From the NCBI RefSeq assembly GCF_021032705.1, contig NZ_JAHVXI010000001.1:558001-622000 (forward strand): a stretch of 64,000 nucleotides of DNA. Direction: 5' to 3'. Positions 1 to 12,437 of this stretch are shown here, piece by piece. The notes under the pieces are model-generated. The model saw only the letters and a list, made by a program, of their open reading frames with translations. It did no database searches and was not told where the DNA came from. A program made the translations under genes and the position numbers. This DNA is from Psychroserpens luteolus. GTDB taxonomy: Bacteria > Bacteroidota > Bacteroidia > Flavobacteriales > Flavobacteriaceae. The stretch's first letter is position 1. Each line of letters opens with the position of its first letter.

Positions 1-969
1 CCATAGTACTGCAACTAAGGTTAGAATTGAATAGGCAATTACAATTTTATAATCATAATATAGGAGTACGAAAAAGAATATTGAAAAGTTAATTATTGAA
101 AATAATGTGACTAGCGATTGTGAGGTTAAAAATTCTTCAATTCTTTCATGATCTTGAATTCTTTGGTTGAAATCACCTATAAGCTTAGAATCAAAAAAGT
201 TAATAGGAAGCTTCAGTATTTTTTTAAAAAAATCTGAAATGATTGTAATATTAATCCTTGTTCCTATATAAAGCATAATCCAATTACGAACAATCTCAAT
301 AACTATAGAACCTAAGAACAAAAAGACTTGTGCTAGCAAAATAATAAAAACAATACTCAAGCTTTTACTCTCAACTCCTTTGTCTATTAACGATTGTGTT
401 AAGAAAGGAAAAATCAAGGTAAATAAACTTCCGGCCATCAGACCCAGAAATAATTGAAAAACTTCTTTTTTATATGGCTTTAAAAAGCCTAGTAAGAACT
501 TGAAGTCTATACGCTTTTTTTTAAGAACCTCCTTTTTATAGAATTCTTCTGTTGGATGCAAAAACAGAGCAACGCCTTTATCGTTTTCGGTAAGCCATCT
601 TGATTTAAATTCTTCTTCGTTTAAAGAAATTAGGCCATGTGAAGGATCTGCAATTTTGTATTTATACTTTCCGGTAAGGATGTTTTTTTTATGATTATAG
701 AGTACAACAAAATGGTTTTGATTCCAATGAAGCACACATGGCAATGTTCCTTCTATATCAAGTGTTGTAAGATCCAGCATACTTGCATGTGTACTAAATC
801 CTATTTTTTCAGCGGCTTCAGAAATCCCTCTTAAACTAACACCATCTCGTTTTAAATAAGAAATATTCCTGATGTAGTCAATTCGGTGTTTTTTTCCGAA
901 ATAAGCTGATATCATGGCAATACAAGCTGGACCACAGTCCATTTGATCATGTTGAGGAATTAACTTCAT
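1..969 (-). CDS. Peptidase-containing ABC exporter (C39 type), 5' part only
   Basis: The reading frame starts at the ATG at 969 and stays open to the left edge, so only the first 323 residues are visible. Residues 1-130 look like a C39 bacteriocin-processing peptidase: the Cys box is QMDCGPACIAM with the catalytic Cys at 12, followed by the His (NQNHFVVLYN) and Asp (IADPSHG) boxes. From about residue 165 hydrophobic segments of an ABC transmembrane domain begin, and the nucleotide-binding domain must lie outside the window. Family knowledge: these exporters cut Gly-Gly leaders and export the peptide core. The neighbouring Gly-Gly precursors are the obvious substrates. It is probably the last visible gene of the leftward RiPP unit, separated from the oxidoreductase gene by a 26-bp palindrome. 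Confidence 0.92.
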   Translation of the reverse strand, partial: MKLIPQHDQMDCGPACIAMISAYFGKKHRIDYIRNISYLKRDGVSLRGISEAAEKIGFSTHASMLDLTTLDIEGTLPCVLHWNQNHFVVLYNHKKNILTGKYKYKIADPSHGLISLNEEEFKSRWLTENDKGVALFLHPTEEFYKKEVLKKKRIDFKFLLGFLKPYKKEVFQLFLGLMAGSLFTLIFPFLTQSLIDKGVESKSLSIVFIILLAQVFLFLGSIVIEIVRNWIMLYIGTRINITIISDFFKKILKLPINFFDSKLIGDFNQRIQDHERIEEFLTSQSLVTLFSIINFSIFFFVLLYYDYKIVIAYSILTLVAVLW

Positions 970-995
970 AAATCTTAAACACTTTTATATTAAGC

Positions 996-1021
996 TATAG
1001 CTATCAAATTTGATAGCTATA
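996..1021. repeat. 26-bp perfect palindrome between oxidoreductase and exporter genes
   Basis: TATAGCTATCAAA is followed directly by its reverse complement. It fills most of the 68-bp gap between the flavin oxidoreductase stop and the exporter start. No T-tract follows on either strand, so it is not a standard terminator. It may be an RNA hairpin that tunes expression between the biosynthesis and export genes, or a protein-binding site. Confidence 0.75.
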
Positions 1022-1037
1022 AAAGGGTTAATGTATA

Positions 1038-2006
1038 TTAATTGACAATTGTTTCTTTTTGCAAATTGAATCGGTCACTTATAGCATTAATATTGGAAAG
1101 CAATTGTTGAGGGTCATCTGTTAGGTCGTGAATAATAAATTCATCAACACCATATAAATCTTGGTATTCTAAGAGCATATTATATAGAGAATCGATGGTA
1201 ACCGCAAAAATTTTAAACCCTTCATTTTCCCCTTGACCATAATGAGCTTTGAGCTGCTCCAATGCTTTTAGAGCTTCAGGCATTGTATTTTTCATACAAA
1301 TTGAAATTCCAATATTCACTTTAGGATAGACCTTGTGTTTTTCAAAAAAGTCTTGCTTAAATTTCAAGAGTTCTTCTTTTTTATAATCATCCTCTCCTGG
1401 CAATGAGTGAAATAATGAACGACTATAGTTAAGTCCATATTTAATAGCTGTTTCAACATTTCTATAAGACGTAGACAAATACCACATTTCTGGTGCTTTT
1501 CCACCATAAGGAGGTATTACTACTTCATTTTCTTCAAGGTTTTTCTTTTCATTATAAAGCAGGTCATAGATTAATTTTAGCTTGTCATCAAAATCTTGTC
1601 TAAAACTTTTTCTGCTATTTAGATCTCTGTCCATTTTAACAACTTTCTTGGTCTCTACAAGTCCGCTTCCCTTAGCTAATCCTAGATCGATTCTATCATA
1701 AAACATATTATTCATTAGCTTATAGTTTGTCACGACAGGATAGGCATCATGTATTATAATTGTAGATCCTGCTGAACCAACTTTTATTTGATCTGTCATT
1801 CCTGCTATGATACCAATTAATAGATCTGGATTTGTAAATGCTGTTGTAGTTAGAGGTCCATGATGTTCCCCTAACCAGAATCTAGAAAACCCTAGTTTAT
1901 CTGCTTCCACAGCATATTCTATGATTTCTTCTATTGTAGCCATACTATTTTTATCTATTCTATAGCCATATTCTAATAGTCCTATTTTAATGTCTCTATT
2001 TATCAT
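1038..2006 (-). CDS. Luciferase-like (LLM class) flavin-dependent oxidoreductase, copy 1
   Basis: A 322-residue protein of the bacterial luciferase-like monooxygenase fold (TIM barrel). Family-like signatures are the N-terminal strand IGLLEYGYR, FSRFWLGEHHG near residue 40, and RIDLGLAKGSG near residue 105. It is a clear paralogue of the adjacent gene: the overlap is ATGA (4 bp), so the two are translationally coupled. LLM proteins use FMN or F420 to oxidise or reduce small molecules; F420-dependent members reduce dehydroamino acids in some lanthipeptide pathways. Inference: it tailors the RiPP encoded just upstream. Cofactor and reaction cannot be read from the sequence. Confidence 0.85.
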   Translation of the reverse strand: MINRDIKIGLLEYGYRIDKNSMATIEEIIEYAVEADKLGFSRFWLGEHHGPLTTTAFTNPDLLIGIIAGMTDQIKVGSAGSTIIIHDAYPVVTNYKLMNNMFYDRIDLGLAKGSGLVETKKVVKMDRDLNSRKSFRQDFDDKLKLIYDLLYNEKKNLEENEVVIPPYGGKAPEMWYLSTSYRNVETAIKYGLNYSRSLFHSLPGEDDYKKEELLKFKQDFFEKHKVYPKVNIGISICMKNTMPEALKALEQLKAHYGQGENEGFKIFAVTIDSLYNMLLEYQDLYGVDEFIIHDLTDDPQQLLSNINAISDRFNLQKETIVN

Positions 2007-2950
2007 ACCAAAGCCAATAGATTAAATTTTTCGCTTATGAGTTCTACATTTTTAATCTTGGCCTCATTAGTTACGGCAAAATCATAAATGATAAATTCAT
2101 CAATACCAAAATCGTCTTGATATGACAATAACATTTCGTGCATAAGGTCTATAGTTGTTGGTATAATATTAAACGCTTCTCTTGCATTTGCTTTTGTTTC
2201 AGCTATAAAATCGTCTACTTTTTTAGTAGCTTCTTCAATAGTATCTCCAATATATACTGCTAATGCTAGTGCTACTTCTGGATAATGACCGTTTTTCTCA
2301 AAGTACAATGACTTACATTTTAAAAGCTCTTCTTTTTTATGCTCTATTTTTCTTCCTGTACCATGAAATATAGATCTACAGAAATTTAATTTATGCTCAA
2401 TAACCGTATCAAAACTGCGGTATGATCCTGACAAATACCATAAATCTGGTGTAGAACCACCAAGAGGTGGAATTAAAAGATTGTGTTCTTTTAAATTCTT
2501 TTCTTCATTATTAAAGAGGTCTACGATACTTTTAAGATTCTCATCAAAAATTTTAAAGCTAGTATCAACATTAAGTTTTTCGTTTGCGAGTTTCATGATA
2601 AGCTTACTATCTGGAATCCCCTTAGACAGCCCTAGATCAATTCTATTGGAGTAAAGATTATTAAGCATTTTAAAATTTGTAGCTGTCGAGTATGGTGAGT
2701 ATAAACTAATCGACGTTCCAGCAGTTCCAACTTTAATTCTTTCGGTCATTCCTGCCAATATGGTTAGCAAAATCTCTCCATTAGAGAACGGGTGGTTAGG
2801 ATAAGTGTAGTGATGTTCGGCCAGCCAAAACCTAGAAAAGCCTTTATTCTCTACTTCAATAGCATAATTAATTATTTGCTCAAGTATACTTAAGCTATCT
2901 ATTTTTTCTCTATATCCGAGTTCTATAATTCCTAATTTAATTTGTCCCAT
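2003..2950 (-). CDS. Luciferase-like (LLM class) flavin-dependent oxidoreductase, copy 2
   Basis: A 315-residue paralogue of the gene at 1038-2006. It shares the IELGYR start, FSRFWLAEHH, the MTERIKVGTAG strand and RIDLGLSKG. It lies 67 bp downstream of the LanC-like gene, and its stop overlaps the start of the next LLM gene by 4 bp, which suggests a two-subunit or two-step enzyme. Bacterial luciferases are heterodimers of paralogous chains, so a heterodimer is possible. Role in tailoring the RiPP is inferred from position only. Confidence 0.85.
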   Translation of the reverse strand: MGQIKLGIIELGYREKIDSLSILEQIINYAIEVENKGFSRFWLAEHHYTYPNHPFSNGEILLTILAGMTERIKVGTAGTSISLYSPYSTATNFKMLNNLYSNRIDLGLSKGIPDSKLIMKLANEKLNVDTSFKIFDENLKSIVDLFNNEEKNLKEHNLLIPPLGGSTPDLWYLSGSYRSFDTVIEHKLNFCRSIFHGTGRKIEHKKEELLKCKSLYFEKNGHYPEVALALAVYIGDTIEEATKKVDDFIAETKANAREAFNIIPTTIDLMHEMLLSYQDDFGIDEFIIYDFAVTNEAKIKNVELISEKFNLLALV

Positions 2951-3017
2951 GTGTTTTCTTATTAAAATATTAATAGTCTATATGATAAGCGTCATTAATA
3001 ATGATGCTAAGCGGTAT

Positions 3018-4196
3018 CTAATAAAAATTTAGAAACCTTAAATAGTCGTGCCCTAATTCTTTTTCCTGAGCCATTAACATGATACCTATACCACAAATTC
3101 CTTCAGAAAATGATAAGTGGGTATAATCATGTTGTGCATTATAATTAGAGTGGTAACCTGCCCAAGCCGATTTCTTGTTATCCTTATTTAGTGTAATGTC
3201 TTTCCAATAATTAACAGCTTCCTGTAGTTTTGAATCTTCTAGTTTTGTATTTACTTTGCTAAACAGCGCACATAAACCAGAAGAGCCATAAAATAAGCTG
3301 GCATCTTTAGTATATTTCTCATTATTGTCTCTAAACTTGGCTGCATTTTGAAGAATATCAGACCCTATAGCTAAAAGGTCATCATTTTGCAAAAGTGTTC
3401 CGGCATTTAAAAATGTATATCCAATTCCAATATCTCCATATGCCAGATCTTGATAATTCAATTTTTCTTTTTCATTGGCTTCTAATCTAAACCAATTGAC
3501 TCCTTTTTTCTCATTAAATTCATAAAGAAAATTAAGACCTCTTAATATTAATGACTTTAAATTGTTATAGGCTATATTTTTTGAATAGGCTTGAAGTAAA
3601 AAATTAACTATACCTGCTACTCCATGAGTCACACCCAATTCTACAATCGGTTCTTGAGGGTCTTTTAGAATGGATTCCCAATACACAAAACTTTCAACTG
3701 TTATCGTTTGTTCTTCAATTGATGATAATAAGGCAATGAGTTCAGAATTAACATCAATAAACTCTAATCTATTTAACAAATAATAACCAGCTTTTATAGC
3801 GCCCAACATTGGATCTAGATTTTTTTTGTTGGTCTCCTCCAATAAAAAATCTTTAATGATGGTATCCGAATCAACTAAAAGCTCATTGATGTCTTCTTTG
3901 TCTATAACACCTTGTTGGTATAAAAAAAACAGATAATCTCCTAGATCAATAATATTGTTAATGATATTGGTCCCTTTATAATGATCGCCAATGCCTTCAA
4001 TACTTTTTTCTAAATAGGTTATTACATCATTTAAATACACATCATCATTAGTAAATAAATAATAATAATAATGATATAATGAAAGTCCTAATAAACCATC
4101 CATAATTCCCATGTTAATAAACTTGGAATCATTTTTTATAAGCGCTTCTCTTATTAAATCTGGCTTCGTATTAATGTGTTTTGTTATCACCTTCAT
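3018..4196 (-). CDS. LanC-like protein without zinc ligands
   Basis: A 392-residue alpha/alpha-barrel protein with LanC-type repeats: GVTHGVAG (His191), LAYGDIGIGY (252-260), LFYGSSGL (301-308) and the final FSEGICGIG (363-371). LanC cyclases bind zinc through Cys in WCYG and Cys-His in CHG. Here those positions are Ala252 and Phe302-Tyr303, so all three ligands are missing, while the catalytic-type His191 stays. It sits in a RiPP operon directly after the precursor genes. Inference: either a scaffold or leader-binding partner, or a cyclase working without zinc. The ATG at 4196 lies inside the last codons of the degenerate precursor gene. Start choice is supported by good N-terminal helix content and lack of alternatives upstream. 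Confidence 0.85.
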   Translation of the reverse strand: MKVITKHINTKPDLIREALIKNDSKFINMGIMDGLLGLSLYHYYYYLFTNDDVYLNDVITYLEKSIEGIGDHYKGTNIINNIIDLGDYLFFLYQQGVIDKEDINELLVDSDTIIKDFLLEETNKKNLDPMLGAIKAGYYLLNRLEFIDVNSELIALLSSIEEQTITVESFVYWESILKDPQEPIVELGVTHGVAGIVNFLLQAYSKNIAYNNLKSLILRGLNFLYEFNEKKGVNWFRLEANEKEKLNYQDLAYGDIGIGYTFLNAGTLLQNDDLLAIGSDILQNAAKFRDNNEKYTKDASLFYGSSGLCALFSKVNTKLEDSKLQEAVNYWKDITLNKDNKKSAWAGYHSNYNAQHDYTHLSFSEGICGIGIMLMAQEKELGHDYLRFLNFY

Positions 4197-4350
4197 CTGT
4201 TTGGGTTTCAGAGCAATTTGACCTTGTACGACAGGAATACAATAAACAAGAACCAGCAGCTAAATTATGATGTTCAAATGCTGGTTCTTGCACTTGAAGA
4301 TTAGAGACAATCTTTTTGTTTAATTGTAATTTTTTGTTCAGTCTAATCAC
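4171..4350 (-). CDS. Degenerate RiPP precursor peptide (sixth copy, GTG start)
   Basis: A 59-residue frame beginning with GTG at 4350 (an in-frame TGA lies four codons upstream) and ending at 4171-4173. It aligns with the five neighbouring precursors: IRLNKKLQLNKKIVSNLQ matches the leader, and GSCLLYSC matches the core pattern S-C-x3-[ST]-C. It lacks the two N-terminal lysines, and HHN replaces KGG at the cleavage site. It has a third Cys (SNCSET). The last 26 bp overlap the start of the LanC-like gene in another frame. It may be a decaying copy, or a precursor processed differently. Similarity is seen directly; expression is not known. Confidence 0.7.
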   Translation of the reverse strand: MIRLNKKLQLNKKIVSNLQVQEPAFEHHNLAAGSCLLYSCRTRSNCSETQTDEGDNKTH

Positions 4351-4365
4351 TATTAATGTTCATTA

Positions 4366-4536
4366 TTATTCTTTCTCTTCTCCTTTACATATTTTTGGAT
4401 GCGAATTACATGAAGCGAATAAACATGATACCTCTTGAGCTAAACCTCCTTTGATATTAGTTAAGCTATCGTCTTGTAGTTTACTCACGACTTCTTTGTT
4501 GAGATAGAGACTTTGATTTAGTTTGATTTTTTTCAT
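4366..4536 (-). CDS. RiPP precursor peptide with Gly-Gly leader (copy 1)
   Basis: A 56-residue peptide. The leader (residues 1-31) begins MKKIKLNQSLYLNKEVVSKL and ends NIKGG, the cut site for C39 exporters. The core is about 25 residues, contains SCLFASCN plus a third Cys near the end (KICKGE), and ends in an acidic/basic tail. It is the most divergent of the five intact copies. The leader type resembles those annotated in Bacteroidota as class I lanthipeptide-like precursors (from memory). Ser/Thr next to Cys would allow lanthionine rings if a dehydratase exists. Confidence 0.88.
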   Translation of the reverse strand: MKKIKLNQSLYLNKEVVSKLQDDSLTNIKGGLAQEVSCLFASCNSHPKICKGEEKE

Positions 4537-4576
4537 AGTACATACGTTTTTAAAGTATTATTATCTAAAATGGTTG

Positions 4577-4744
4577 TTAGGCCTCTTTTTCTTCTTTTTT
4601 AGAGCTGGTATTACAACTAAACATATAACAAGATCCAGATTCTGCTGCCATACCTCCTTTTACATTTGCTAATTGATCTTCTTGTAGCTGACTTACCACC
4701 TCTTTGTTGAGTTGAAGCCCTTTTTGTAGTTTAACTTTTTTCAT
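4577..4744 (-). CDS. RiPP precursor peptide with Gly-Gly leader (copy 2)
   Basis: A 55-residue peptide starting at the ATG at 4744. The leader ends LANVKGG at residue 31. The core is MAAESGSCYMFSCNTSS followed by a Lys/Glu tail, again with the S-C-x3-S-C-N pattern. It lies 40 bp upstream of copy 1 with no obvious hairpin between them. It is likely processed by the C39 exporter of the same locus. Confidence 0.88.
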   Translation of the reverse strand: MKKVKLQKGLQLNKEVVSQLQEDQLANVKGGMAAESGSCYMFSCNTSSKKEEKEA

Positions 4745-4786
4745 AATACATTAGATTTAGTGTTAATATTTAAAGATTTATGACTC

Positions 4787-4939
4787 CTATTTTTCTTTTC
4801 GTTTAGAATTACAGGTTAAGTATATACAGGATGCTCCAGCTGCCATTCCGCCTTTTACATTTGTTAATTGATCTTTTTGCAATCTACTTACAACTTCTTT
4901 TGTAAGTTGAAGTCCATTATTTAGTTTTATTTTTTTCAT
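4787..4939 (-). CDS. RiPP precursor peptide with Gly-Gly leader (copy 3)
   Basis: A 50-residue peptide starting at the ATG at 4939, the shortest copy. The leader ends LTNVKGG at residue 31. The core MAAGASCIYLTCNSKRKEK keeps the pattern, with Thr instead of Ser before the second Cys. Two Cys residues and one Ser/Thr partner before each would allow two small rings, but this is inference. Confidence 0.88.
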   Translation of the reverse strand: MKKIKLNNGLQLTKEVVSRLQKDQLTNVKGGMAAGASCIYLTCNSKRKEK

Positions 4940-4975
4940 GATAATTTGGATTTAAATTTGAAATTAAAAAGAAGA

Positions 4976-5007
4976 TAAACAGCTAGTTTTTAGCAACTAG
5001 CTGTTTA
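4976..5007 (-). terminator. Hairpin between precursor copies 4 and 3
   Basis: A perfect 13-bp inverted repeat (TAAACAGCTAGTT and its complement) with a 6-base loop lies 17 bp after the stop of copy 4. On the transcribed (-) strand it is followed by a T-rich run. It looks like an intrinsic or partial terminator that would lower expression of the genes downstream of the first two precursors. Confidence 0.7.
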
Positions 5008-5023
5008 CTTGTTCATCTAAGAA

Positions 5024-5188
5024 TTAAAGCTCTACTGGAGCATCTTTTTTCTTAGTGTTACATGAGAAGATTCCACATGATCCAGCCGCAGCCATACCAC
5101 CTTTAACATTAGCTAATTGATCTTCTTGTAATTTACTTACAACCTCTTTGTTTAGTTGTAATCCTTTGTTTAATTTGATTTTTTTCAT
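5024..5188 (-). CDS. RiPP precursor peptide with Gly-Gly leader (copy 4)
   Basis: A 54-residue peptide starting at the ATG at 5188. The first 31 residues (through KGG) are identical to copy 5, and the 5' untranslated sequence just before the ATG is also nearly identical, which points to a recent tandem duplication. The core is MAAAGSCGIFSCNTKKK with a short tail. A hairpin precedes and another follows the gene. Confidence 0.9.
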   Translation of the reverse strand: MKKIKLNKGLQLNKEVVSKLQEDQLANVKGGMAAAGSCGIFSCNTKKKDAPVEL

Positions 5189-5220
5189 AATAAATGATTT
5201 TAAAAATTAATGAATAAGAT

Positions 5221-5246
5221 ATAAGTAGCTCTACTAAGCCACTTAT
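5221..5246 (-). terminator. Imperfect hairpin between precursor copies 5 and 4
   Basis: Arms ATAAGTAGCT and AGCCACTTAT pair with one wobble around a 6-base loop, 22 bp after the stop of copy 5. The following T-tract is weak, so an attenuator or RNA stabiliser is as likely as a terminator. Confidence 0.45.
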
Positions 5247-5267
5247 TTGAAACTCAAAAAGACACTA

Positions 5268-5435
5268 CTATTGTTCTTGAGGAGTGTCTTTTTTCTTTTT
5301 AGTATTACATGAGAATAATCCGCAAGAATCAGCTGGTGCTAAACCACCTTTAACATTTGCTAATTGATCTTCTTGTAACTTACTTACAACCTCTTTGTTT
5401 AGTTGTAACCCTTTGTTTAATTTAATTTTTTTCAT
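5268..5435 (-). CDS. RiPP precursor peptide with Gly-Gly leader (copy 5, promoter-proximal)
   Basis: A 55-residue peptide starting at the ATG at 5435. The leader is identical to copy 4 up to KGG. The core LAPADSCGLFSCNTKKKK keeps S-C-x3-S-C-N, and the tail is DTPQEQ. It is the first gene of the leftward array, so it should be the most strongly expressed. The upstream gap holds two adjacent palindromes. Confidence 0.9.
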   Translation of the reverse strand: MKKIKLNKGLQLNKEVVSKLQEDQLANVKGGLAPADSCGLFSCNTKKKKDTPQEQ

Positions 5436-5494
5436 AATAAATGATTTTAAATTAATGAATAAATAAGCTGTCTTTTTGTGTCGTAAAGCTTTTA

Positions 5495-5518
5495 TTGGAC
5501 GTCCAAACTTGCAAGTTT
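5495..5518. promoter_or_regulatory. Two adjacent perfect palindromes upstream of the precursor array
   Basis: TTGGACGTCCAA (5495-5506) abuts AAACTTGCAAGTTT (5505-5518). Both are perfect dyads, 60-83 bp upstream of the first precursor start and in the gap after the receptor gene. They could be operator half-sites for a regulator of the array, such as the nearby response regulators; no T-tract supports a terminator. I could not identify a clear -7 element. Confidence 0.4.
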
Positions 5519-5566
5519 TCTTTTGTATATGTTTTAGGGTTTATAGCGTTTTACGGCATAACCCTT

Positions 5567-7969
5567 TTAGTTTCCTGTTCTAGCTTTTTCTTCTTCATTA
5601 CCGAAGTCTTTTCGGCTAACGTTTATCTTTTTATTTCCAAAATTATATCTGAGAGAAACTCTCAATCTCCTAGAGTCATAATAGTTCTCAAATGTTGTTC
5701 TTACACCATTACTAAATGCTGTAACTTCAGTAATTTGGCTTCTAAACAAATCACTTCCTGTTACAGATAACTGTAGATCTCTGTTTAGAAAGAAAAATTT
5801 AAGAGCAACATCTACACTATAACTAGAGGATGTTTTATAGATGTCATAAACCCCTGGGAAATTATACCAAGCATCAATACTAGAAATTATTGTTCGGTCT
5901 TCATTTAACACAAAACTGTTGCTAGTCGAGATATAAGCATTTACTCCATTTCGTCTATCATTTATAAAATCTAAAAGCGACTTTGTATAACTATAATTAA
6001 TGTTTAGTGTATTAACACTTTCCCATTTTTTCCATGTATTGAATGTGTAAGATTCTGTAAGGCCAACAGTGTAACTATCATAGTAATTTTGAGGAACTAC
6101 GGCTCTTATTCCTGTTTGATTATCTATGGTTACTATTTGTCCAAAACCATCTTTTATCTGTGAGAAGTATAAGCTACTCACCCATTTTTGTTTATTGATA
6201 TAAGAGAGCTCTATATTATCGGAAAATGAAGGTTGTAAAAAAGGATTTCCTTCAACAAAAAGAAAAGGGTTTTGAGTAATTCGGAAAGGGTTCAGATATT
6301 CAAAATCTGGTCTTGATATTCGTTTATTATAGCTCAATGAAAATATATGATCTTCACTTGGAACATAGTTAATATATGCACTAGGGAACACTTTCATATA
6401 ATCATTTTCATTTGTTTGATTTAATTGTTGAGATAGACCTTCAGTAGTTGTATTTTCTAGTCTTAAACCAATTTTAGTGCTCCATTTATCATTAAAGTTC
6501 CTATTAGCTGAAACATAAAGTGCCGTATTGGTTTCTTTGTATTCGAATTGATTGGTTTGATCGAGATCCAAAATTGGAATTCCTGTTGTGGTATCAAAAA
6601 AGCTCACATCATTATCTGAGTTTATAAATGATAGTTTACCTCCAAAATTGATTTCGACCTTTTTTAAAGGAAATTCGACATCTACTTTAAATGAATAATT
6701 ATTAATATTTTGTCTTCCATCATTTTTTCCTGCATTAAAACTCCCAGGAATTTCTTGCTCGTTGTTAAAAAAATTAGAGGAGTTATAGTCTCTAGAACTG
6801 TTATCTATAAATGTGAAATAGTCTAAATTGAATGCGATATTCTTTCCTATAGAATCTAGCTTATAATCTGTATGAAAATTAATAGAATGTAATGGTGTTG
6901 ACTGTTTGATATTCGACTTAGAAATAATTAAAGAGTCTACAGCTAAAGTCGTTTTATTGATAATATTGGTTCTATCATTTTTGTTTTCTATTCTGAGGTC
7001 ATCGTATCCTAATTGGTATTGAAATCCTGAAGATAATCTGTCACTCCACTGATAATTCAGTGCAATTCTTGTACTCACACTATTATCGTAAAATACACGT
7101 CTTGGGTTTTCACTGTCCCAGAGTTGATCATCAAATTCAAACTCATTGGTATCAGTAATAAGTTTAGAACCTTTGTCATAAGATCCATTTATATATAATG
7201 ATGTTTTGTTTTTTCTATATCTAAAACTACCTGCAATATTTCCATCGGGATAAGTGTATTGGGTATAAGTTCCTCTCAAACTGGCTCTCCAACTATTTCT
7301 TACTCCTTTTTTATATATGATATTAATTAATCCACTATTACCTTCTGCTTCATATTTTGCAGGCGGATTAGTAATAATTTCTATTTTTTGAATTTCTTCT
7401 GAAGGAATGGACTTTAAATAATTGGTCAAATCATCTCCAGATAAATTAATGAGGTTACCATTTACCAAAACTCTTATATTGCTTTTTCCAAGCATAATAA
7501 TTTCGTCGTTCCTAAGTCTGAGATAAGGTGCTACTTTTAAGATATCTGTAACATCTCCACCAGAAGCAGATATAGAATTTTCGACATTAAAAACAAGTCT
7601 ATCAACTTTCTTTTCAATAAGGTTCTTACTCGAGGAAATAATAACCTCATCTAACTCATTTTTACTAGGATATAGTATGACATCACCTAATTCTAGTTTT
7701 TCGTTTAAAGTTATATTAATGATTTCTGTTTCGTAGCCTACATAACTTATATTAATGATATAGTTATCCTTTTCGGCCTCTAATTTGAAATAGCCTTTAT
7801 CGTTGGTAATAGTTCCTGAAATTATCTTACCATCTTGCTTGGTTAATACAACATTTGCATAAGCAATGGCAATATTGGAAGAGTCTTTTACAACTCCTAC
7901 AATTTCTACCTGAGAATGTGCTACGGAAGTAACCAAAAAAAACATAAAAAACAGAGGAATTAATTTCAT
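5567..7969 (-). CDS. Outer membrane beta-barrel receptor (TonB-dependent type)
   Basis: An 800-residue outer membrane protein. Residues 1-19 are a signal peptide (MKLIPLFFMFFLVTSVAHS), then comes a CarboxypepD_reg-like domain (about 20-105, with YANVVL and GYFKLEA). A plug-like segment follows (about 115-225, with ILKVAPYLRLRNDEI and IEIITNPPAKYEAEG), and then a long Tyr/Asn-rich beta-barrel ending at residue 800, like the OMP_b-brl_3 family. It is a single gene with its own upstream gap. It lies between the RiPP array and its likely regulators, and may be a sensor, importer or secretion/immunity partner for the peptide; this is inferred from position. Confidence 0.85.
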   Translation of the reverse strand: MKLIPLFFMFFLVTSVAHSQVEIVGVVKDSSNIAIAYANVVLTKQDGKIISGTITNDKGYFKLEAEKDNYIINISYVGYETEIINITLNEKLELGDVILYPSKNELDEVIISSSKNLIEKKVDRLVFNVENSISASGGDVTDILKVAPYLRLRNDEIIMLGKSNIRVLVNGNLINLSGDDLTNYLKSIPSEEIQKIEIITNPPAKYEAEGNSGLINIIYKKGVRNSWRASLRGTYTQYTYPDGNIAGSFRYRKNKTSLYINGSYDKGSKLITDTNEFEFDDQLWDSENPRRVFYDNSVSTRIALNYQWSDRLSSGFQYQLGYDDLRIENKNDRTNIINKTTLAVDSLIISKSNIKQSTPLHSINFHTDYKLDSIGKNIAFNLDYFTFIDNSSRDYNSSNFFNNEQEIPGSFNAGKNDGRQNINNYSFKVDVEFPLKKVEINFGGKLSFINSDNDVSFFDTTTGIPILDLDQTNQFEYKETNTALYVSANRNFNDKWSTKIGLRLENTTTEGLSQQLNQTNENDYMKVFPSAYINYVPSEDHIFSLSYNKRISRPDFEYLNPFRITQNPFLFVEGNPFLQPSFSDNIELSYINKQKWVSSLYFSQIKDGFGQIVTIDNQTGIRAVVPQNYYDSYTVGLTESYTFNTWKKWESVNTLNINYSYTKSLLDFINDRRNGVNAYISTSNSFVLNEDRTIISSIDAWYNFPGVYDIYKTSSSYSVDVALKFFFLNRDLQLSVTGSDLFRSQITEVTAFSNGVRTTFENYYDSRRLRVSLRYNFGNKKINVSRKDFGNEEEKARTGN

Positions 7970-8024
7970 ACGTAGGTTTTCTCAAACTTAGATGTAATTT
8001 CTTTTTTCTTTCCATTTTTAATCA

Positions 8025-8055
8025 TAAAAAAAGTAAGGACAATCCTTACTCTTTT
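8025..8055 (-). terminator. Intrinsic terminator after the response regulator
   Basis: AGTAAGGA and TCCTTACT pair around a TTG loop on the (-) strand and are followed by a run of seven T. It lies 24 bp after the response regulator stop and separates that operon from the receptor gene. Confidence 0.8.
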
Positions 8056-8078
8056 ATACTTTAATATGTCATTTTCAA

Positions 8079-8762
8079 CTAAATAAACCCTTTTTCTTTA
8101 GCTACCAAAAGTAGTTCTCTATCATCAACACTTTTGATATTAAAAAGGTGTTTAAGGTGTCGTTTTCTTTTCTCAATCCCAGCTATAGATAATGGCAAAA
8201 TACTTGGAAGATCTTTCATTCGTGTTCCAATAGACAGTTCGTATAAAATCTTTCTATCAATGTTGTCTAAAAGAAAATCATTAGCTACTTGTTTACGCAA
8301 TAGCCTTATAACAGTTTTACTATAGTAGGGAGGGTCATTTATGATTGTATCTATAGTTTCAATAAGCTCTTTGGGTGTGATATCATTTTTTATTAAAAAT
8401 CCATCTGGATTCAAACTCTTAAAAATACTATGAACCCGATAATTATCATTAAAGGTTGTGGATACAATGATTTTAGTATTGGGTAATAATTTGTTAATTT
8501 TTAAACCAAGGTCTTCACCTGAAATAATTTTTCCGTCTTTAGATGGTGGTAACTTAATATCTAAAAACACAATATCGAGTACTTTTTTTTTTTTGAAAAT
8601 ATCATTAATCATATCCATTGAAGTGTCACAATCCTGAACAGTATCTATTGAAAATGTAATGTTCTCATTTTGCTTACTATAATAATCAAAAGCTGTTTTA
8701 TACGCCTCTGTAATAAGTGGGTGATCATCAATAATAAGAACTGAATATTTCTTGTTTTCCAT
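8079..8762 (-). CDS. Response regulator, NarL/LuxR-like output
   Basis: A 227-residue protein with a receiver domain (acidic pair in IIDDHP; phospho-acceptor Asp68 in IVFLDIKLP; Lys in FLIKND) and a C-terminal helix-turn-helix segment (about 165-227, with LPLSIAGIEKRKRHLKHLF). The gene starts 10 bp after the histidine kinase stop, so the two form an operon and a two-component pair. The insertion after Asp68 (PPSKDGKIISGED) is longer than usual but is common in flavobacterial members. The target genes are not visible from the sequence; the receptor and RiPP genes next door are candidates. Confidence 0.88.
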   Translation of the reverse strand: MENKKYSVLIIDDHPLITEAYKTAFDYYSKQNENITFSIDTVQDCDTSMDMINDIFKKKKVLDIVFLDIKLPPSKDGKIISGEDLGLKINKLLPNTKIIVSTTFNDNYRVHSIFKSLNPDGFLIKNDITPKELIETIDTIINDPPYYSKTVIRLLRKQVANDFLLDNIDRKILYELSIGTRMKDLPSILPLSIAGIEKRKRHLKHLFNIKSVDDRELLLVAKEKGFI

Positions 8763-8772
8763 AGCGGTTTAT

Positions 8773-10812
8773 TTATATTGGAATTTGGGTTTCTATAAGT
8801 GTGCCTATATAGGGTTGGGAATTGATACGAAATTCACCGTTTAATTTTTCGACTCTTGTCTTCATGTTTTTTAATCCTATCCCTTTTTTTCTGCGGTTTA
8901 CATTAAAGCCTTTACCATTGTCACTAATCTTCATCAATAGATCACCTTCATGAATTGAAAAAGTTACGTCTATATTTTTTGCCTGAGCGTATTTGATAAT
9001 ATTTTGTAATGCTTCCTGGATAATTCTATAAAGATTAACTTTAACTATTTCGCTCATCTTTTGCCAATTGATATCAGAGTTGAATGTCAACTCAAATTCA
9101 AAATCACCAATTTTAGACTTACTCACTAATAATTGATGTATAATAGTTTTGAAATTGATCTGAGAACTATCAAAATTAGTGTTTAATCGATGTGATACTT
9201 CTCGTATCTCTTTTTCTATAGTTTGTAATTCTTCCAAAAACTTGTTGTGCTGTTCTTGTGTTTCTTTATTTCCTTTGATCTCTAAAAACCCAAGTCCTAC
9301 TCTGGTTCCAAATAACTTCCCTAAAATTCCATCATGTAATTCTTCTGAAATTCTATTGCGTTCTTTTACTTTTTCTTTTTCTAATTTTTCTTGCTGTTTT
9401 AAGGTAATTAGGTAAACCTGTTCGTTTGCTTTTTGCTGTTCATTCTCCAACACCAGCGTTTTATTTATCAATTTTTGACTATTGACGAAATATAATAACA
9501 TTAGAATCGCCAACAACCCCAGACTAATTAATATGATCCATATCTTTTGTTGAGATAATCGTTTGTTTTCTTCGATGTATTCATCGGTTTCATAAGCGAT
9601 TCTTGTAAACTTATTTTGAATTCTTCGTTCTACAGTTTGAAGACTATCACTAAATTTAATATGCTTTTCTAAATAGTTTTGAGAAGACTTTGTATCTAAT
9701 TCAGCGAGTAATAAAAGTGACTCCAAATAATCTCTACCATTCTTATTAATCTTTGCCAAATCATTAGCTTCTCTAGCATAAATAATTGCCTTACTAGTAT
9801 CTTGAGCAAAAGCATAATATTTTGAAAGATGGATTTTACAAATAATGATTCCCGATTTATAATTTAGGCTATCTCTTATTTGTAAGGACTCTTTTAAATA
9901 ACTGTGCACATTGATAGTATCATTCATTAATAATTTACAATATGCCTTGTTATCTATAACTCTTGCGTAATGATTTATGTTTTGCAGTTTTAAACTGTCA
10001 TTCTTTAAAATTTTGTCAAAATAGCTTAAAGCCTTGGGGTAATTGCCTTTTTTTAAATGAGTAACACCTATATTATTCAAACTAGCCATATACAAGGATT
10101 TACTCTTTTCAATCTTTTTAAGATATTCTAATGACTTATTATAATAAAATAAAGCTCGGTCGTATTCTTGGATATCATTTTGTAATTGTGCCAAATAATT
10201 ATAACACGAAAACAAGGATTTGTAGTTTTCTATCTTTTTAAACTTATCTATGGCTTTAAAGGTTAATACTTCGCTTCCCGAATAATCTTTGAAACGTCCT
10301 TTAATAAAAGCCATTCCGTACTGAGTTTTTGCAGCTTCAAAAAGGTGACCGCTTCTATCAAAATAAGTATTTGCCAGATTAAAATGATAATAAGCACTAT
10401 CAAAGACCTCTACTTTATTATAGTAGCTGGCATAATTCCAGTAGAGATCACCAATTGCCATAGAATCTTTTAAATTTTCGGCTATAGATAATGCTTCTAC
10501 ATTTTGCTTTTTAAACAATAAGGTATCCCCTAGTTTAAAATTCTTATAAGCGATTTCACTTAATCTTCTAACTCCAAATGTGTCTACGCTTGATGTGGTA
10601 ATTGCTTGGTAAGACATAACCAAAAATTGCTTTCTTACATTTAATTCGTAAGTCCTATTTTCTGAAGCTTTTATCCAAAAATCGATGCTATCATTTATAG
10701 TTAGCAGCTCATTGCTATCTGTGTTAATTTCTTTTTTATCACAGGATTGTAAAAACATTCCCCAAAAAAATAGTAAGATGCAAAAAAAGCGATATAAGTA
10801 ATTAATTTTCAA
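8773..10812 (-). CDS. Sensor histidine kinase with TPR sensor region
   Basis: A 679-residue kinase. The N-terminus has a signal or lipobox-like stretch (FLQSCDKKE). Residues about 50-400 are tetratricopeptide-like helices (DSAYYHFNLANTYF, DRALFYYNKSLEYL, PKALSYFDKIL), a membrane helix lies at about 424-446, and a coiled coil follows. The HisKA_3 dimerisation region holds the phospho-acceptor His near 491 (SEELHDGILGKLFG), and the HATPase domain has DNGKGFN and GIGLKNM. It is the first gene of the pair with the response regulator. The TPR region probably senses or binds a periplasmic signal. Confidence 0.9.
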   Translation of the reverse strand: MKINYLYRFFCILLFFWGMFLQSCDKKEINTDSNELLTINDSIDFWIKASENRTYELNVRKQFLVMSYQAITTSSVDTFGVRRLSEIAYKNFKLGDTLLFKKQNVEALSIAENLKDSMAIGDLYWNYASYYNKVEVFDSAYYHFNLANTYFDRSGHLFEAAKTQYGMAFIKGRFKDYSGSEVLTFKAIDKFKKIENYKSLFSCYNYLAQLQNDIQEYDRALFYYNKSLEYLKKIEKSKSLYMASLNNIGVTHLKKGNYPKALSYFDKILKNDSLKLQNINHYARVIDNKAYCKLLMNDTINVHSYLKESLQIRDSLNYKSGIIICKIHLSKYYAFAQDTSKAIIYAREANDLAKINKNGRDYLESLLLLAELDTKSSQNYLEKHIKFSDSLQTVERRIQNKFTRIAYETDEYIEENKRLSQQKIWIILISLGLLAILMLLYFVNSQKLINKTLVLENEQQKANEQVYLITLKQQEKLEKEKVKERNRISEELHDGILGKLFGTRVGLGFLEIKGNKETQEQHNKFLEELQTIEKEIREVSHRLNTNFDSSQINFKTIIHQLLVSKSKIGDFEFELTFNSDINWQKMSEIVKVNLYRIIQEALQNIIKYAQAKNIDVTFSIHEGDLLMKISDNGKGFNVNRRKKGIGLKNMKTRVEKLNGEFRINSQPYIGTLIETQIPI

Positions 10813-10838
10813 CAGATTTGAGTTTCAAACAAAACTAT

Positions 10839-10900
10839 GAAAAAAGCCTTTAATTAATGACAGATTATTTTTTGAATATCCCATCTTTAACTAAAGGCTC
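10839..10900 (-). terminator. Terminator after the small lipoprotein gene
   Basis: GCCTTTAATTAA (10846-10857) and TTAACTAAAGGC (10887-10898) pair with one mismatch across a 29-base loop, and on the (-) strand the stem is followed by six T. It would end the transcript of the small lipoprotein before the kinase operon. Confidence 0.6.
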
Positions 10901-10919
10901 TTATTATGAGTTGTTGGTT

Positions 10920-11081
10920 TTATTCTTTACTTCCATCATCTGGATTTGCATCTTCACCTCCCGTTGCTTGTAAATTTTCTAATGTTGGTTGATCTTGGTC
11001 ATCGTCAAAAGCTGTGTCTGTACAAGACATAATACACATTGATGTTGCTAATAGTAAAAATAATAATCTTAGTGTTTTCAT
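10920..11081 (-). CDS. Small lipoprotein, hypothetical
   Basis: A 53-residue protein starting at the ATG at 11081. It has a hydrophobic signal followed by a lipobox-like CIMSC (Cys20), then a very acidic, Asp-rich mature part of 33 residues (DTAFDDDQDQPTLEN, GGEDANPDDGSKE). It has its own terminator and lies upstream of the kinase gene. Short acidic lipoproteins of this type are frequent in flavobacteria, and no function is known to me. The frame is supported by the signal peptide and a clean stop. Confidence 0.7.
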   Translation of the reverse strand: MKTLRLLFLLLATSMCIMSCTDTAFDDDQDQPTLENLQATGGEDANPDDGSKE

Positions 11082-11294
11082 AATACAAAATTTAAAAGTT
11101 TAATAATAGTTTTTAAGGCCTAATTTTGTTCGATCATAATTAAAATCGAACAGATTTGTTAGTGTTAATTGTTTGAATGTCAATGATTTTATAAGACTAA
11201 ATTATGAAGGCAATATATGTTCTACTATCAAAACTGAATTGTTTTAGTAATTACCATTAGTCTATGAGTGAAATGCTCCTTTTAGATAGGGAAG

Positions 11295-12017
11295 TTAGTT
11301 TAAGGTGATAAGTGTATTTTTTGTTAACGCTGTATTTATCAAATCTACATTTTTGATAAATGTTTTTGTAAAAGGTATTTTATGTTCTCTCTTAACAAAA
11401 CAAATTGATTTGCCATAATGAATTCTAGAAATACAGTTTCTGTTTATGATATAACTCTTATGGATTCTTAAAAAAGTTTTGGGTAGTAAATTCTCAAAGA
11501 CCTTTAGCGTTTTATAAGCACCAATAACTCGGCCATCTGCCATATAGAAATCTGTAGTGTTATTATCTGCTTTTAGATACAGTATGTCTTCAATATTTAA
11601 ATATTGATAATCTTTGTACGATTTCAGGCAAATCGTTTCGCTTTGTTTAATTGGGAATTTTTTTTGGTATTTTAAAAGACTTTTCCTTACTAAATGTTCC
11701 TTTAATGGTTTTAATAAAAAATCTATAAAATCATATTTATAAGCATCAATAGCCTTTTCTTTATAAACTGACAATGCTATAAACAATGGTTGGTTCACAA
11801 CACATTGATTAATCTCTAATAGAAATTCGGAAATATTGATATGAACTGCGTCAATATTGAAAAACACAATTTGAGGCTTATCTTTTAAGACAAGATTTAA
11901 AGCCTTTTCATAATCTTCATCTACGACATTAAATGTAATCTCAGAAAAATCATCAGCTACATTTTGTATGATTTCAGCTGTAGTTTTGTCGTTATCAATT
12001 ATTAAGCAATGTATCAC
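11295..12017 (-). CDS. LytTR-family regulator with degenerate receiver
   Basis: A 240-residue protein. It has a receiver-like domain (residues 1-115; IIDNDK at 6-11 and the Lys switch in LLKPLKEH) and a LytTR DNA-binding domain (about 135-235; LKADNNTTDFYMADG, LRIHKSYIINRN). The phospho-acceptor position reads IVFFNID, with Asn54 where Asp is expected, so it probably is not controlled by ordinary Asp phosphorylation. No kinase partner is adjacent. LytTR proteins bind direct repeats to control secreted peptides, cell-wall or bacteriocin genes. Inference: it may regulate the RiPP locus. Confidence 0.87.
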   Translation of the reverse strand: MIHCLIIDNDKTTAEIIQNVADDFSEITFNVVDEDYEKALNLVLKDKPQIVFFNIDAVHINISEFLLEINQCVVNQPLFIALSVYKEKAIDAYKYDFIDFLLKPLKEHLVRKSLLKYQKKFPIKQSETICLKSYKDYQYLNIEDILYLKADNNTTDFYMADGRVIGAYKTLKVFENLLPKTFLRIHKSYIINRNCISRIHYGKSICFVKREHKIPFTKTFIKNVDLINTALTKNTLITLN

Positions 12018-12188
12018 CTTAACTTTTTGAGTGCAAGTTAATTACTAAAAAGTGTAAGTAAGTATGGTATTTAATTACTATTAATAAGGCTGAAACCTAC
12101 TTTTACTTCGTAAAATTAAATTTTGAAATGAGGTGTAATACAACTCAATGCTTTTTAAGCCTAAAACAATTAGAGCAAACATTTCATG

Positions 12189-12220
12189 ATAAAAGATATT
12201 GTTGCAACAATATCTTTTAT
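12189..12220. repeat. 32-bp perfect palindrome
   Basis: ATAAAAGATATTGTTG is followed immediately by its exact reverse complement, with no spacer and no T-tract next to it. It lies 172 bp upstream of the LytTR regulator start. It could be a regulator binding site or the 5' hairpin of a small RNA. Confidence 0.85.
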
Positions 12221-12350
12221 ATCAACTCCTATAAATCTTGAAAACAAACAGTTAAAGAAAGGGTTATAGTTTGTATAGATAATTAGACTGGATATGTACT
12301 CTAAGGTTCACAAGGTAATATACCAAAACAATTAATTCATAATTAAGTTT

Positions 12351-12379
12351 AAGGAAGCACAATCATGTGCTTCCTTTTT
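12351..12379 (+). terminator. Forward-strand intrinsic terminator without a visible gene
   Basis: GGAAGCACA, an ATCA loop and TGTGCTTCC are followed by seven T on the + strand. The (-) strand lacks a good T-tract. No + strand gene precedes it, so it suggests an unannotated rightward transcript, or it may serve ssb as a poor bidirectional terminator. Confidence 0.7.
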
Positions 12380-12437
12380 TTAAATTCATAAAGCTTTTCA
12401 AATTATTTGTCGATTATTAACAAAAAAGAAATTATGT

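Follow-up and report, generated by a model that had tools for sequence, protein, structure and literature searches.

A conserved homologue of class I lanthipeptide precursors, without a Gly-Gly end, overlaps a zinc-less LanC-like gene in Psychroserpens luteolus

The region analysed is a stretch of 64,000 nucleotides from Psychroserpens luteolus (contig NZ_JAHVXI010000001.1, positions 558,001 to 622,000), referred to here as the window. Its minus strand carries, in this order, an outer-membrane beta-barrel protein (5567..7969), five Gly-Gly precursors, which we call P1 (5268..5435), P2 (5024..5188), P3 (4787..4939), P4 (4577..4744) and P5 (4366..4536), a precursor-like peptide lacking Gly-Gly, P6 (4171..4350), the LanC-like protein LanC1 (3018..4196), two luciferase-like flavoproteins (2003..2950 and 1038..2006) and the N-terminal part of a C39 peptidase ABC transporter (1..969), which continues left of the window. 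Beyond the left edge of the window (locus L007) follow LanC2, a 745-aa LanB (PF04738) and, encoded separately, an elimination protein of 296 aa (PF14028). LanB and LanC are present in the same cluster, the proteins at L007 matching PF04738, PF14028 and PF05147. The surroundings of P6 are a class I lanthipeptide cluster, with a split LanB, a canonical LanC, flavoproteins and a C39 transporter.

The same arrangement of beta-barrel protein and precursors was observed in two other genomes discussed below, those of a Psychroserpens sp. (G010, locus L066) and of an uncultured member of Flavobacteriaceae (L067). A terminator-like hairpin stands after P2 in the window (4975..5008, minus strand) and a similar one after P2 in G010, whereas in L067 it lies just upstream of P6, between the sister precursors and P6. 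Terminator-like hairpins between precursor genes (e.g. 4975-5008 and 5221-5246) were found at 5 sites, against 0.4 expected from shuffles, and hairpins like those of the window are also present in G010 and L067. The P1 protein of G010 has the same sequence but for one extra C-terminal residue, while P3 to P5 differ; this near-identity of P1 beside diverging P3-P5 may point to a signalling rather than an antibiotic role.

Both flavoproteins carry the PF00296 domain, which they share with LanJC of the birimositide cluster, a flavoprotein proposed in PMC7268733 to reduce dehydrated residues (Ser to D-Ala). By analogy, both are candidate LanJC-type proteins, with a putative reductase activity; unlike in the birimositide cluster, there are two copies here, in a flavobacterial cluster of class I. 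The split LanB recalls pinensin biosynthesis as described in PMC7268733; what the present cluster has in addition is the pair of luciferase-like proteins, a LanC-like protein devoid of zinc ligands and a precursor that lacks Gly-Gly. The cluster and neighbouring regulators form an island of about 18.3 kb (window 1-12434 and onward left of the window) that is missing in the near relative G006. The left flank in G006 is 94% identical over 3.3 kb, and its sequence then jumps from G000:C11:552129 to 570435 (window position 12435), from which we conclude that G006 lacks the entire island; support for the right flank comes from 177 bp at 89% only. G006 carries no broken copy of P6.

P6 is a frame of 59 residues (4171..4350, minus strand) that begins with GTG and is present in the list of open reading frames. 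As originally described, it contains LQLNKKIVSNLQ and GSCLLYSC, has a third Cys (residue 46) and lacks Gly-Gly. We divided it into a leader (residues 1-19; 4294..4350) bearing the LxLxKx5L motif, a linker (residues 20-28; 4267..4293), which is part of the double-glycine recognition and cleavage region of the sisters, and a core region (residues 29-50, NLAAGSCLLYSCRTRSNCSETQ; 4201..4266), all on the minus strand. The overlap of 26 bp with the LanC-like frame, reported previously, holds when counted from the ATG at 4196. If the GTG at 4190 is taken instead, which in the alignment matches the starts assigned in the relatives (GTG and TTG, as assigned by the ORF lister), the overlap is 20 bp, and a 20-bp overlap is found in all three genomes. 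The start codon of P6 is GTG in two of them and ATG in the third.

P6 is a real homologue of the five adjacent Gly-Gly precursors. The NCBIfam family NF038153 (lant_leader_L1a), with a curated cut-off of 22 bits, scored 23.7 bits for P6 of the window, 22.8 for that of G010 and 26.8 for that of L067. Using a profile built from 12 Gly-Gly precursors of the three clusters, the three P6 scored 30.5, 39.4 and 33.3 bits, respectively, while the best frame from shuffled DNA reached 13.6 bits (15,000 dinucleotide shuffles in six frames, with 75,805 of the 90,000 frames reported). On a tree, the three P6 fall on one side of a branch and the 12 Gly-Gly precursors on the other (support 95/94), and a single loss of Gly-Gly is therefore the simplest account. 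The idea of a hidden sixth RiPP precursor is hence backed by homology, by position and by orthologues in three genomes. P6 resembles the L1a-leader class I precursors of Bacteroidota (NF038153; PMC7268733, which describes the LxLxKx5L motif) in its leader motif and in a core with Ser/Thr and Cys, and the cluster likewise has LanB and LanC genes, a C39 transporter and several precursors. Unlike them, P6 has no Gly-Gly end, overlaps a LanC-like gene and matches NF038153 only over approximately positions 5-25 of 32, the match stopping at 24-25.

Conservation near the LanC-like gene in flavobacterial relatives, which the original prediction had proposed to look for, was observed: P6 has orthologues in the same genomic place in G010 and L067. 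All three lack Gly-Gly, retain LxLxKx5L, SCLLYSCRT and the cysteine spacing C35-x4-C40, and have an open frame; neither the lack of conservation nor the disrupted frame that had been named as evidence against the prediction was seen. The two orthologues, L066 and L067, came from a scan of genome contigs with the patterns MI[RS]LNKKL and RSNCSETQ, which relatives carrying neither would escape. Since L067 matches the first pattern, the conservation of SCLLYSCRT in it was not imposed by the scan.

P6 looks rare; it was found in three genomes, two of them in one genus. When 23 genomes of the genus were searched with P6, six gave a match at E 1, strong in the window's genome and G010 only; the matches in the other four (L041, L042, L043 and L044) were weak (E 0.15-0.9). 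Inspection of L041 and of an extra match in G010 (L054) showed that neither is a precursor. L1a leaders above the cut-off are confined to the window's genome and G010 among the 23, and all 11 matches lie inside this cluster. LanC1 gave a similar picture, with matches in 4 of 57 relatives that were close only in the window and G010; all other matches among 397 family genomes had only 22-30% identity, and among 198 relatives of the L067 genome, a match past E 1e-40 was obtained in the L067 genome only. No LanC1 was found in one scan of viral contigs, and a search of plasmids returned two matches at 28% identity. A class-wide search with the P6 profile gave 17 weak matches in 16 genomes besides its own (E 6.5e-4 to 0.0089), 12 of which were inspected, the others (L074, L075, L079, L081, L082) being frames of 354-388 residues. 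Of the 12, L069, L086 and L071 are Gly-Gly precursors, L070, L073, L076, L077, L080 and L084 are open frames without the leader motif and by eye chance matches, and L072, L078 and L083 have no open frame with Cys.

The three parts of P6 have evolved differently. Between the window and G010, pN/pS is 0.42 for the leader, 1.10 for the linker and 0.39 for the whole of P6, and the core region shows 8 synonymous and no non-synonymous changes, with region borders that were chosen after the alignment had been seen. In 200,000 simulations, all eight changes came out synonymous 2 times under a uniform model and 7 times under a transition-biased one. The sisters P1 (0.02) and P2 (0.07) are more constrained than P6 as a whole, and its weaker overall constraint is due to its leader, its linker and its tail, which overlaps LanC1.

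The linker is where the export signal would be expected. The double-glycine rule asks for Gly-Gly, Gly-Ala or Gly-Ser at -2/-1 and hydrophobic residues at -4, -7 and -12, and the C39 domain of LahT contacts Val-4, Leu-7 and Leu-12 in addition to the double Gly (both from PMC6363468). With Leu18 taken as -12, P6 of the window, G010 and L067 has HN, EN and EK at -2/-1, E, E and D at -4, and P, S and L at -7; Leu-12 is thus kept, Leu-7 is kept in L067 only, and P6 does not qualify as a double-glycine leader. Among 33 LanC loci we collected 41 frames with the leader motif and Cys, two of which were dropped by eye as chance; 34 of the other 39 have GG after the leader, 2 have KAG, and in the three P6 this place carries neither of the two, although the script tags two P6 as AG/GA owing to an AG beside the core. 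No alternative cleavage site or motif common to the three linkers was visible by eye, and the linkers differ in all three genomes. Given such free drift in the cleavage region, a cut there that depends on a specific sequence is not to be expected.

Based on these observations, we propose that P6 is a paralogue of the class I (L1a-leader) precursors that still functions and is modified, but escapes cutting and export by the C39 transporter and in all likelihood remains cytosolic, leader attached, a reading to which we would assign a probability of about one half. Since leader motif and core are both kept, we argue that P6 should still be a substrate of LanB. Its translation would be coupled to that of the LanC1 gene behind it; it would bind LanB, be dehydrated and perhaps be cyclised or reduced like its sisters. 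Escaping the transporter, it would remain in the cell with its leader on, or be trimmed by an enzyme encoded elsewhere, and the retained peptide may act on the pathway or protect the producer instead of adding to the secreted products. Its overlap with the LanC1 gene, together with the position of the L067 hairpin between sisters and P6, suggests that P6 is made with the enzymes; this is less clear in the window and G010, where the hairpin follows P2 and does not precede P6.

Retention in the cell is deduced from the absence of a known site, and a protease encoded elsewhere would give the same picture. It is possible, if in our judgement doubtful, that P6 gives rise to a secreted lanthipeptide and loses its leader to such a protease or through trimming by general peptidases. 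The core region is kept as that of a product would be, and unclustered lanthipeptide proteases are described (PMC8960859). This explanation has to contend with a linker that drifts at about the neutral rate and has no common cleavage motif by eye, and it leaves the overlap with an enzyme gene unexplained. The nearest protease-like neighbour, a metalloprotease-like protein, was rejected as a clustered leader protease, since it is not specific to the cluster: it occurs in 6 of the 23 genus genomes, 4 of which are without the precursors.

The gene that P6 overlaps is itself unusual. LanC1 has a LANC_like domain (PF05147, E 1.6e-22) and evolves under purifying selection (pN/pS 0.17, window against G010). 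We take the zinc-ligand set, after NisC, to be a Cys followed by a Cys-His pair, which agrees with 31 of 36 aligned rows. At these columns all three LanC1 have Ala and then Phe-Tyr, and they keep the His (A252, F302, Y303 and His191 in the window), while 31 of the 33 other rows, LanC2 included, have Cys and Cys-His. The five rows without the set are the three LanC1, L003 and L036. The LanC-like proteins of L003 and L036 keep the first Cys and have lost the Cys-His pair. The wording for LanC zinc ligands in PMC9934072 is two His and one Cys. The best fold matches of a LanC1 model (mean pLDDT 68) were MadC (8byk) and LanCL2 (6wq1), at TM 0.5-0.6. A sequence-profile search of the PDB gave no match at E 0.01. 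Near the C-terminus, the three LanC1 share an identical SNYNAQHDYTHLSFSEGICGIG, from which LanC2 differs; in the model, residues 339-392 have pLDDT below 50, which left the conserved HDYTH stretch without a placement. Each of the three genomes encodes two LanC-like proteins. Cyclase domains without zinc residues also exist in class III LanKC (PMC7268733), which has in common with LanC1 a LanC fold without zinc ligands; unlike these domains, LanC1 forms a protein of its own, and its cluster is of class I and also encodes a ligand-bearing LanC.

In a different role, P6 would be translated and left unmodified, its conserved Cys pair binding a partner or a metal; it might, for instance, be a small subunit that joins the zinc-less LanC1. 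The C35-x4-C40 spacing, the 20-bp overlap and the missing zinc ligands of LanC1, each found in all three genomes, are in line with it. However, an unmodified subunit would have no need of the leader motif, and in genome G681 the nearest relative of LanC1 found beyond the three genomes (218 bits, 32% identity) has no adjoining P6; we consider this role improbable. The related G681 cluster contains four Gly-Gly precursors, one PF00296 flavoprotein, a C39 transporter, a LanB with both domains in one protein and two LanC-like proteins (L099 3824-4957 and 11161-12342, the second being that relative). Both lack the zinc-ligand set in the alignment, no P6-like frame was found by eye before either gene, and a PF05147 search of the G681 genome revealed no further LanC-like gene (three matched stretches, all in those two). 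The pairing of P6 with LanC1 is thus not obligatory, and zinc-less LanC-like proteins do not depend on P6. Another long shot is that P6 has turned from a product into a part of the machinery, leader-bearing, non-exported and possibly modified, which would bind LanC1 and provide it with thiols or a metal site, or would control the pathway in another way.

That P6 derives from a Gly-Gly precursor and is decaying, as had been considered originally, appears very unlikely to us. Gly-Gly has been lost and the start codon is GTG, and the G010 linker, read in the +1 frame, resembles the EDQLANVKGG of the sisters (reached by 16 of 3000 shuffles), a hint of compensating frameshifts. The resemblance is clearest in G010 (262 of 3000 shuffles reach it in the window) and is weak since nine frame tests were made. 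Plain nucleotide alignments of the linkers did not stand out from shuffles, of which 2000, 1472 and 2000 of 2000 scored as high. Against decay, the frame is open in three genomes and the core has accumulated only synonymous changes between the two closest. Finally, continued cutting of P6 by the C39 transporter, at an Ala-Gly that adjoins the core in the window and G010, is scarcely credible: AG does precede Ser34 in two of the three P6, and KAG occurs in the family precursors L004 and L038, but the AG lies four residues past the usual site, P6 of L067 has no Gly between leader and core, and all three P6 have Glu or Asp where Val-4 would be.

L1a precursors, the split LanB and LanJC-type flavoproteins are of known kinds (PMC7268733). 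Among the matches listed from the open-access literature, in the text accessible, we found no conserved precursor that lacks the Gly-Gly end, belongs to a C39 cluster and overlaps the gene of a zinc-less LanC-like protein, though one may still have been published; for the genus, the matches listed contain one mention of Psychroserpens, in a genome survey. Precursors without a Gly-Gly end are easily dismissed as remnants, and yet the core here has the same amino-acid sequence in the two closest genomes while the cleavage region drifts. The zinc-less LanC-like proteins, being under purifying selection, pose the question of the role of a LanC fold without zinc. If P6 is modified, recognition by the modifying enzymes would be separated from export, and P6 would be a natural test of action inside the producer.
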